A stretch of 64,000 bases of DNA from Deefgea rivuli DSM 18356 (GTDB lineage: Bacteria; Pseudomonadota; Gammaproteobacteria; Burkholderiales; Chitinibacteraceae): NCBI RefSeq assembly GCF_000620145.1, contig NZ_JHVM01000003.1, positions 124,001 through 188,000 on the forward strand. The letters are read 5' to 3'. Below the pieces are notes generated by a model. That model made no database searches and was not told where the DNA came from. It was given only the letters and a program-made list of their open reading frames with translations. The position numbers and the translations under genes were made by a program. Below, piece after piece: positions 31,343-33,294 of this stretch (the stretch's first letter is position 1; each line of letters begins with the position of its first letter).

Positions 31343-31387
31343 GTATGTGAATGCAGGCATTAACTATAAAAGCCTGCATTCATATAC
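31343..31387. repeat. Palindrome family A, copy 6
   Basis: The arms GTATGTGAATGCAGGC and GCCTGCATTCATATAC pair at 15 of 16 positions, the exception being a G-T pair. It starts three bases after the MFS stop and ends 15 bases before the next start codon, next to its ribosome site. Confidence 0.8.
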
Positions 31388-31402: not shown

Positions 31403-32395
31403 ATGATGATAGTCATGCAGCTCAATGCTGAAGAGGCGCAAGTCGCGGCAGTGATCGAGCAAATTCGCGCCGCGGGCTTAAAAGAGCATGTTTCGCGCGG
31501 TGCCGAATTGGTCATTATCGGCGCGATTGGCGACGAAGATCGCTTAAGCAGTGCAAGGTTCGAGCGTTTGCCTGGCGTTGAGCGCGTTTCTCGCGTTACC
31601 AAACAATACAAAATGGTCTCCCGCGATACGCACCCAGTAGGAACGAGCTTTAAAATTCGCGGCGCTCTGATTGGTGGCGAGCAAATTCAGGTGTTTGCTG
31701 GTGTGCGTAGTTTGGATGCGGCATTGCCAGTCAATTCGGTAACGAGCATGGTTCAAGCTGCAGCTTGCCGTTTGCTGTGGGCGGGTTCTGAATCACTCAA
31801 TCAAAACCCTTATGAATTCAATGGATTTGAAGCTGAAAAACTCATTGAATTACGCGCCGCAGCGCGGAGTCATGCGCTGCCTTTTGCTGCCGAGCTAAAT
31901 GATTTTTCAGTACTGGAAACCTCGCTAGCAAATGATGTTGACGCTTTGATCTTGGGCGCGCGCAGCATGCAAAATCGCGCTTTATTGCGAGAGTTGGGGC
32001 GAATCAATAAGCCTGTCATCTTGCGTCGTGGCCTGGCGGCGAGTCTCAGTGAGTGGCTGTTGGCGGCAGAAACGATTGCGGCTGGCGGCAATCATCATAT
32101 TATTTTGTGCGAACAAGCCACAAAAAATGGTTTGGATATTGCAACGATCCCATTCCTAAAACGCGAAACGCATTTGCCGGTTTTTGTCGATGCAAGCAAT
32201 GGCGCAAAAGTGTGGATGGTGCCAGCACTGGCGCAAGCGGCGATTGCGGCGGGTGCCGATGGCCTAATGTTGGACATTCATCCGAATCCAGCCGAGGCGC
32301 CACATGGTGGCGATCAAGCTTTGGATTTGGCGCAACTTCAACAATTAATGACGGCTCTGGCGGTGATTGCCCCTGCGCTGGGTCGAAGAATTTGA
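31403..32395 (+). CDS. DAHP-synthase-like protein lacking catalytic residues
   Basis: This 330-residue protein aligns end to end with class I-beta DAHP synthases (Thermotoga type), including the N-terminal ACT-like domain (1-70) and the barrel. The active site is not kept, judged against the Thermotoga sequence recalled from memory. AGVRS (99-103) replaces AGPCS, losing the metal-ligand Cys. SLNQNPY (131-137) replaces KPRTSPY. RRG (208-210) replaces KRG. DASN (263-266) replaces DPSH, losing the ligand His. LD (290-291) replaces VE. The RGIRTFE loop is deleted. It looks like a pseudoenzyme that may still bind an aromatic amino acid. tyrA follows after 17 bases and an AKR gene overlaps tyrA. 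An AGGT ribosome site precedes the ATG. Confidence 0.85.
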   Translation: MMIVMQLNAEEAQVAAVIEQIRAAGLKEHVSRGAELVIIGAIGDEDRLSSARFERLPGVERVSRVTKQYKMVSRDTHPVGTSFKIRGALIGGEQIQVFAGVRSLDAALPVNSVTSMVQAAACRLLWAGSESLNQNPYEFNGFEAEKLIELRAAARSHALPFAAELNDFSVLETSLANDVDALILGARSMQNRALLRELGRINKPVILRRGLAASLSEWLLAAETIAAGGNHHIILCEQATKNGLDIATIPFLKRETHLPVFVDASNGAKVWMVPALAQAAIAAGADGLMLDIHPNPAEAPHGGDQALDLAQLQQLMTALAVIAPALGRRI

Positions 32396-32412: not shown

Positions 32413-33294
32413 ATGCAGTCTGTTGAACGATTGGTGTTATTAGGTACGGGCTTGATTTCCGGTTCGTTTGCCTTGGCATTAAAACGCGCGCGCTTAGTGA
32501 AGCGCGTCGCTGGTGTGGGGCGTAGCTTAGAAAACCTAGAGCGCGCCGTTGAGTTGGGTGTCATTGACGAAGCATCAACGGATGCTGCGCAGGCGGTAAT
32601 CGGCGCGGATTTGGTTTTGCTCGGTACGCCCGTTGGGCAGATGGGCAAATTAATGCAACAAATAGGGCCCAATTTGTCGGCTAATTGCATCGTTACTGAT
32701 GGCGGCTCGACCAAGCAGGATGTTTGCGCGCTGTTTCGTGAATATTTACCGCAGCAATTGTCGACCTGTGTACCAGGACATCCGATTGCGGGCTCGGATT
32801 TGTCGGGCGCATCGGCTGCGCAATTTGGCCTATATGAAGGTCGCCGCGTTGTGCTGACGCCGCTAGCAGAGGGCGCTGCTCCTGCTGTTGAGCGCGTGCG
32901 CGAACTATGGCAAGCCTGTGGCGCGATTGTCTATGAAATGGATGCGGCACAGCACGATGGTATTTTTTCTGCAGTGAGCCATACGCCGCATCTACTGTCT
33001 TTCGCCTATATGAATTCAGTTTTAGATCGTTACAATGCGGAGCAGTGCTTGGATTTTGCGGCCAGTGGTTTTCGCGATTTCACGCGAATTGCTGGCTCGC
33101 ATCCCGATATGTGGCGCGATATTGCGCTAGCCAATCGCGAAGCGATTTTGCAGGATCTCAGGTCGAATGTGACGCAAATGACGCAGTTGATTGAGTTGGT
33201 CGAGTCGGGCGATGGCGTCGCCCTTACGCAGTACATTCAACGCGCAAGCCAGGCTCGAATTGAGTGGGGTAAGCCGAAAAAAGGATCATTGTGA
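32413..33294 (+). CDS. tyrA: Prephenate dehydrogenase
   Basis: This 293-residue NAD-linked enzyme makes 4-hydroxyphenylpyruvate for tyrosine. It has the dinucleotide motif LLGTGLISGSFALAL (residues 8-22), VLLGTPVGQ, GHPIAGSDLSGA and AVSHTPHLLSFA with the catalytic histidine. There is no fused chorismate mutase or ACT domain. It follows the pseudo-DAHP synthase and overlaps the aldo-keto reductase start. Confidence 0.95.
   Translation: MQSVERLVLLGTGLISGSFALALKRARLVKRVAGVGRSLENLERAVELGVIDEASTDAAQAVIGADLVLLGTPVGQMGKLMQQIGPNLSANCIVTDGGSTKQDVCALFREYLPQQLSTCVPGHPIAGSDLSGASAAQFGLYEGRRVVLTPLAEGAAPAVERVRELWQACGAIVYEMDAAQHDGIFSAVSHTPHLLSFAYMNSVLDRYNAEQCLDFAASGFRDFTRIAGSHPDMWRDIALANREAILQDLRSNVTQMTQLIELVESGDGVALTQYIQRASQARIEWGKPKKGSL

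Follow-up and report, generated by a model that had tools for sequence, protein, structure and literature searches.

A Deefgea homologue of class I-beta DAHP synthase, encoded upstream of tyrA, lacks the active site yet is retained under purifying selection, with a putative tyrosine-sensing domain

The gene and its product

The window is a 64,000-nt stretch of the genome of Deefgea rivuli DSM 18356 (contig NZ_JHVM01000003.1, positions 124,001 to 188,000); the genus is placed in the Neisseriales, family Chitinibacteraceae, by the NCBI taxonomy. At 31403–32395, on the plus strand, there is an open reading frame of 330 aa preceded by a GAGG ribosome site. It is followed after a gap of 17 nt by tyrA (32413–33294, plus strand), which encodes a prephenate dehydrogenase of 293 aa with PDH_N and PDH_C domains; no ACT domain was found in this protein by profile search. 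The full length, open frame, ribosome site and tight linkage to tyrA given in the initial annotation all agree with our data.

On the basis of the reading frame, Pfam matches, alignment and closest solved relative, the 330 aa product is a class I-beta DAHP synthase pseudoenzyme. Residues 1–67 (31403–31603) match the ferredoxin-like domain DAHP_snth_FXD (PF18152; E 1.7e-21, 76.2 bits against a cut-off of 27) and retain H29 and S31. The N-terminal domain had been described as ACT-like; it is indeed present, but Pfam types it as ferredoxin-like. Residues 89–317 (31667–32353) match the DAHP_synth_1 TIM barrel (PF00793; E 8.4e-34, 117.1 bits against a cut-off of 25.5). The top solved relative is the class I-beta DAHP synthase of Thermotoga maritima (1rzm, E 9e-56), to which residues 1–329 align, and the presence of the ferredoxin-like domain plus the I-type barrel along the whole protein points to descent from an enzyme of this class. 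The orthologue in D. chitinilytica LMG 24817 is 64% identical at the protein level.

An AlphaFold2 model built from a 41-sequence alignment (mean pLDDT 84.4, pTM 0.73) contains the barrel strands, and its top solved match is again 1rzm (Foldseek E 5.0e-32, TM 0.81). The weakest stretches of the model are the linker at 66–73 and the loop at 132–139.

Upstream of the gene, between it and an MFS gene, there is a strong inverted repeat at 31343–31387, and the 80 nt 5' of the gene fold at −28.5 kcal/mol. By eye, this repeat is not present in the other six Deefgea genomes.

Loss of the active site

We scored eleven catalytic positions in T. maritima numbering: the metal ligands C102, H272, E298 and D309 and the substrate residues R126, K131, R133, R186, K207, R237 and R240. 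Their roles are those that we take from structural work on the T. maritima and E. coli DAHP synthases. R186 alone is retained in the window protein. The four metal ligands are all replaced: Cys102 by Arg102 (31706–31708), His272 by Asn266 (32198–32200), Glu298 by Asp291 (32273–32275) and Asp309 by Gly302 (32306–32308). Among the substrate residues, Arg126 is replaced by Trp126 (31778–31780) and the catalytic Lys207 by Arg208 (32024–32026). The KPRTSPY motif reads SLNQNPY, so that K131S and R133N fall within the altered substrate motif at residues 131–135 (KPRTS to SLNQN, 31793–31807), which lies in the lowest-confidence loop of the model (132–135 and 137–139). Finally, R237 is Gln and residues 240–246 are absent; of the RGIRTFE loop there is a remnant, E237–T240 in window numbering (32111–32122), with a seven-residue deletion after T240.

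The initial annotation had named R102, N266, D291, R208, the lost K-P-R motif and the RGIRTFE deletion, all correctly in window numbering. The list was right as far as it went, and it omitted the changes of Asp309 to Gly302, Arg126 to Trp126 and Arg237 to Gln.

The importance of these positions is supported by the retention of all eleven in 31/31 intact orthologues and in all 38 informative members of a class-wide sample of homologues. That sample consisted of 40 loci, namely the 37 strongest PF18152 matches among those listed (with the window and genome G050 left out) and three weaker ones. Of the other two loci, one (L119) stops at a contig edge after 240 aa and is intact so far as it is present, and one (L129) is uninformative. 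Three of the 38 vary at T134 or S135.

A protein that passes both Pfam cut-offs could still be an active DAHP synthase if its ligands had moved to other positions. However, no shifted set of Cys, His, Glu and Asp is visible in an alignment with the 31 intact orthologues, and the protein does not reach the curated NCBIfam thresholds for this enzyme (NF006421, 271.7 against 335; TIGR01361, 189.6 against 267.75). We therefore regard persisting activity by this route as highly improbable. As judged from the residues lost at the metal and substrate sites, which is also how the initial annotation had reached this view, it is near certain that the window protein has lost catalysis. Annotation at the level of Pfam is misleading here, as both domains pass and would name the gene a DAHP synthase despite the lost active site. 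Chance or a sequencing fault is excluded because the active site is lost in all seven Deefgea genomes searched and every frame is open.

Orthologues in the family and linkage to tyrA

The search for orthologues beside tyrA suggested in the initial annotation was carried out in 43 genomes of the family and four further genomes of the order (47 loci). In 43/43 family genomes, and in 47/47 when the order is included, there is an orthologue with tyrA downstream of it in the same orientation. The adjacent genes are conserved too, with cmk present in 45/47 loci and rpsA in 44/47, some loci being cut by contig ends. The initial annotation had cited the linkage to tyrA as a sign of selection. It is no evidence of a new role, as the intact orthologues are equally upstream of tyrA; the adjacency is inherited from active ancestors.

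All eleven catalytic positions are present in 31 of the 47 orthologues, made up of 27/27 in nine genera of the family and the four from the order. The remaining 16 are dead: 7/7 from Deefgea and 9/9 from a second genus of the same family, g8 (including loci L083, L075 and L066), in the same gene place. C102, K131, R133, R237, E298 and D309 are absent in all 16, and H272 is absent in 14, being still present in Deefgea genomes G004 and G006. In g8 the changes are C102Y, R237H, H272D, E298D, D309A and deletion of K131–P132, and R126, R186, K207 and R240 are kept in 9/9. In Deefgea, position 102 is R, S or H, position 126 is W (7/7), position 207 is R, position 298 is D and position 309 holds assorted residues. 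The loop at the RGIRTFE region is short in three Deefgea genomes and long but degenerate in four, and in the four long-loop genomes R237 is His, as in g8. Among positions that are invariant in intact proteins, E298D (16/16) is the sole identical replacement throughout both dead genera.

The distance to tyrA is 17–19 nt in Deefgea and 17 nt or less in g10 and g11. The remaining genera of the family have gaps of 148–1014 nt, and in most of them an extra gene lies between the I-beta gene and tyrA. We inspected this gap in 16 of the 47 loci. In two examples (G011 and G030) the intervening gene encodes a protein with META and DUF4377 domains (Pfam), and we dropped the idea that it is a chorismate mutase. 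By eye, the META and DUF4377 gene occurs in g2, g3, g4 (in part), g5, g6, g7, g8 and g9 (e.g. L064 and L083). It is missing from the loci with gaps of 19 nt or less, which are those of Deefgea, g10 and g11.

Two further features of the family loci were seen. In several g8 genomes (e.g. G022, G030, G063 and G064) a terminator-like hairpin with a T-run ends less than 30 nt before the start codon. Since this leaves scant space for a promoter, transcription may involve read-through or attenuation. Loci L046 to L050 encode a second, longer I-beta type (about 375 aa) with the motif CTRMGAYKPRTSPYAFQGHG, and in G049 and G050 this longer type is found alongside the 338-aa type.

One loss or two

Six neighbouring genes, each sampled from 32 to 47 genomes and together giving 1980 columns, yield a tree with the arrangement (g8,(g6,Deefgea)) and a support of 100 for each group. 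The active site is intact in 6/6 g6 genomes, so this tree implies either two losses, or a single one that was later undone in g6 by full repair or by replacement. The tree of the I-beta gene alone unites Deefgea and g8 (support 95), which we read as long-branch attraction. In AU tests on this gene, the best tree (Deefgea with g8) has p 0.77 under LG and 0.743 under C20, and a grouping of Deefgea with g6 is not rejected (p 0.258 and 0.335, respectively). LG rejects the full species arrangement, ((g1,g6),g8), with p 0.0099, whereas C20 does not (p 0.251). We considered whether Deefgea and g8 might go back to one common loss and rejected this, given the support of 100 in the six-gene tree, the non-rejection in the AU test and the finding of E298D as the only common replacement. 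Two independent losses, one in Deefgea and one in g8, are therefore likely on these sequence comparisons.

Selection on the dead gene

The initial annotation had proposed that the gene is kept by selection, and measurement of omega bears this out. Under a codon model, whole-gene omega is 0.105 in Deefgea, 0.092 in its four close genomes (with a tree length of 0.77, short of saturation) and 0.059 in g8; the last value barely exceeds the range of 0.024–0.058 found for five intact genera (g6, g3, g9, g10 and g7, with g2, g4, g5 and g11 left out). The hypothesis that omega equals 1, assessed in the four dead sets with kappa and tree shape fixed from the free model, is rejected in Deefgea (2dlnL 681.1), in its four close genomes (254.6) and in g8 (1077.3). 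As a codon control, omega for tyrA is 0.074 in Deefgea, 0.068 in g8 and 0.055–0.103 in the five intact genera.

These values bear on the possibility that the gene is decaying and on its way out. The active site is gone and the barrel changes more rapidly than it does in the five intact genera, as would be expected of decay. Nevertheless, the frame is open in 16/16 genomes of two genera, the protein has diverged within Deefgea to 57–64% identity without any broken copy, and an omega far below 1 refutes this explanation, to which we give almost no weight.

Constraint is unevenly distributed along the protein. In the sensor region (codons 2–70) omega is 0.045 in Deefgea and 0.034 in g8, values inside the spread of the intact genera (0.018–0.099), whose constraint this region thus matches. 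In the barrel it is 0.123 in Deefgea and 0.067 in g8, with 0.017–0.050 in the intact genera. This amounts to a relaxation of the barrel by a factor of 2.5 to 7 in Deefgea and of 1.3 to 4 in g8, which still leaves it far from neutral. Sensor omega is lower than barrel omega in 4/4 dead sets, whereas it is higher in 4/5 intact genera. Of the 166 positions that are invariant in the 31 intact proteins, 19 belong to the sensor region and 147 to the barrel. All Deefgea keep 18/19 of the former and 59/147 of the latter (Fisher p 6e-6), and all g8 keep 18/19 and 105/147 (Fisher p 0.027). The contrast between sensor and barrel is modest in g8. H29 and S31 are retained in 16/16 dead orthologues (7/7 Deefgea and 9/9 g8). 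They are also present in 27/27 intact family members, so their presence alone is a matter of inheritance. Taken together, the codon and alignment data make it near certain that both dead groups are under purifying selection that is strictest on the sensor domain. Selection on this region could reflect folding or oligomer contacts.

The lineage-wide change is concentrated in the I-beta gene. Invariant positions altered in every member of the genus number 39/200 in Deefgea and 37/200 in g8, against 0 to 2 in the eight remaining genera that are represented by two or more genomes. The same counts for neighbouring gene products, in Deefgea and g8 respectively, are 0 and 1 of 108 for TyrA, 1 and 5 of 96 for Cmk, 3 and 3 of 104 for PgsA, and 11 and 18 of 340 for UvrC. 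Some divergence is thus also seen in the other genes of g8, at a level far below that of the I-beta gene.

Other DAHP synthases in the genome

Besides the pseudoenzyme, the genome from which the window comes encodes two class I-alpha DAHP synthases and a KDO8P synthase. Copy a best matches the Phe-sensitive AroG of E. coli (546 bits). Copy b (L101:965–2014, minus strand), the additional AroF-type enzyme, best matches the Tyr-sensitive AroF (406 bits, against 376 for AroG). At a segment where a Ser/Gly difference, we assume, sets control by Phe or Tyr, copy b has Gly like AroF where AroG has Ser (FLGLN, FVGIN and FLSVT, respectively). The case of a genome with no other DAHP synthase, which the initial annotation had raised against its own reading, is excluded by these AroG-type and AroF-type enzymes. 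No live class I-beta paralogue was found in the window genome, and no class II DAHP synthase was matched in seven Deefgea or nine g8 genomes.

Matches in the score class of copy b (269.5–275 bits) occur in 7/7 Deefgea and in no other genus of the family; elsewhere in the family a second match in the class I-alpha range is found in g10 only (3/3). It is plausible that the AroF-type enzyme took over tyrosine-controlled DAHP synthesis in Deefgea. Replacement by AroF cannot be the general cause of the loss, as g8 has a dead orthologue with a single class I-alpha enzyme (9/9 genomes); in the two g8 genomes inspected (G013 and G030) this enzyme is AroG-type at the Ser/Gly segment.

In two g4 genomes there is a short class II match that lacks the middle of the profile, in frames of 387 aa (G019:C20:25154–26131) and 383 aa (G009:C25:30669–31643).

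Proposed role

The data suggest that the gene encodes a selected pseudoenzyme that is most likely a tyrosine-responsive, non-catalytic regulatory subunit. We put the probability of this reading, which is drawn from sequence comparison, at about 0.5. The ancestor would have been a class I-beta DAHP synthase, encoded upstream of tyrA and equipped with a sensor domain of the tyrosine type. In Deefgea, DAHP synthesis would have been left to the AroG-type and the additional AroF-type class I-alpha enzymes, and the I-beta protein would have shed its metal and substrate residues yet been retained. Its paired ferredoxin-like domains would bind tyrosine, and the barrel, now a scaffold, would relay the signal to a partner in the aromatic pathway. 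In the T. maritima enzyme, H29 and S31 presumably hold the hydroxyl group of tyrosine where two sensor domains meet, and we infer tyrosine binding by the pseudoenzyme. The partner and the direction of the effect are our guesses. Candidate partners are TyrA, AroQ-PheA, stand-alone AroQ, AroF and AroG. AroQ-PheA is encoded in 7/7 Deefgea genomes as a single frame of 360–369 aa with CM_2 and PDT domains, and 5/7 also have a 92-aa frame for a chorismate mutase that stands alone.

The initial annotation had proposed a regulatory role in the sensing of aromatic amino acids through binding of an active DAHP synthase or TyrA. Sensing fits the retention of H29 and S31 in 16/16 dead orthologues, but neither named partner is supported. 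The live enzymes are of class I-alpha only and no live I-beta was found, so that the usual mixed oligomer of a dead protein with a close live paralogue is unavailable. TyrA is a possible natural partner by position. As a co-evolving partner, though, we rejected it, since the count at invariant positions gives no signal of a compensating, lineage-wide adjustment (0 of 108 in Deefgea and 1 in g8).

A structural scaffold, which holds an aromatic-pathway complex together and has lost tyrosine sensing, would account for several of these features. The predicted fold is intact and, outside the sensor, the same parts are kept in both dead groups and may be interfaces: the linker and N-terminal hairpin (66–92) keep 6/7 invariant positions, and barrel helices 5 (213–231) and 6 (248–258) keep 10/14 and 4/5. 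The strictest conservation, however, is in the sensor domain, including H29 and S31 in all 16, and we consider a pure scaffold unlikely.

Somewhat less likely again is that the barrel has adopted a different, metal-free reaction. Eight invariant barrel positions carry one conserved new residue in 7/7 Deefgea, and three of these eight were once catalytic (R126W, K207R and E298D); the four substrate residues kept throughout g8 (R126, R186, K207 and R240) might also serve a new enzyme. Against this, the two genera have no new pocket in common, with E298D alone shared among the replaced invariant positions; 8/11 catalytic positions are variable within Deefgea, and the barrel is the relaxed part of the protein.

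We thus favour the tyrosine-responsive regulatory subunit. A bolder form of this proposal is that Deefgea and g8 each evolved, on separate occasions, a dedicated tyrosine sensor for the shikimate pathway, in that a DAHP synthase gave up its catalytic site and retained its allosteric domain; the sensor would now control an unrelated enzyme of the pathway instead of the activity that the protein once had. We offer this tentatively, as rather more doubtful than the proposal itself. Aromatic synthesis begins with DAHP synthase, which also serves as a model of allostery. A sensor that outlives its catalyst, with intact sister genera and a probably independent repeat, would be a natural experiment in how a regulatory domain becomes a free-standing regulator.

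Comparison with known systems

The T. maritima class I-beta enzyme (1rzm, 1vr6 and 3pg9) resembles the window protein in its full-length alignment, in both domains and in the fit of the model to 1rzm (TM 0.81), and orthologues of this type are intact in nine sister genera. In contrast, the window protein is without the four metal ligands and six of the seven substrate residues counted.

In Shewanella oneidensis, an aroA I-beta 'pseudogene' is fused to AroQ-PheA (Song et al., 2005; PMC1173090). The likeness, as that paper presents the gene, is that a degenerate I-beta DAHP synthase is joined to an aromatic branch enzyme. There it is fused to PheA and called a pseudogene, whereas in Deefgea it is free-standing, upstream of tyrA and under purifying selection. 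By analogy, dead I-beta domains tied to aromatic branch enzymes may recur. In titles and abstract openings of the open-licence papers listed, which are weak evidence of novelty, we found no dead DAHP synthase beyond this one (PMC1173090), and no open-licence paper was found with 'DAHP synthase' and 'pseudoenzyme' together. A search for PF00800 in 369 genomes of the class, of which 300 matched, gave no PheA fusion of the Shewanella type among the matches listed; three frames of more than 700 aa (G202, G150 and G127) encode PheA of ordinary length and extend into upstream DNA.

HisZ is related to a tRNA synthetase but is catalytically dead. As the regulatory protein of ATP phosphoribosyltransferase, it mediates end-product feedback on the first step of its amino acid pathway (PMC9734150). 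The Deefgea protein, on the reading proposed here, would likewise mediate feedback by an end product. The partner of HisZ is known and its effect has been measured, whereas both are conjectural for the Deefgea protein.

In trypanosomatids, the AdoMetDC prozyme and a dead deoxyhypusine synthase are described as dead paralogues that activate a live partner (PMC5201418, PMC3663545). In both cases a dead copy is present, with a regulatory role there and a proposed one in Deefgea. The prozymes pair with a live copy of their own enzyme, in contrast with Deefgea, in which no live I-beta was found.

The DAHP synthase of Mycobacterium tuberculosis is a class II enzyme. In its complex with chorismate mutase, it boosts this second aromatic enzyme by complexing with it, and it is described as the first enzyme of the pathway, that is, as active (PMC4281200). 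The DAHP synthase is therefore an active partner in M. tuberculosis, whereas it is dead in Deefgea. On the accounts in these papers, a dead enzyme kept as a regulator is a protein of a known kind (PMC10211241, PMC5201418, PMC3663545).
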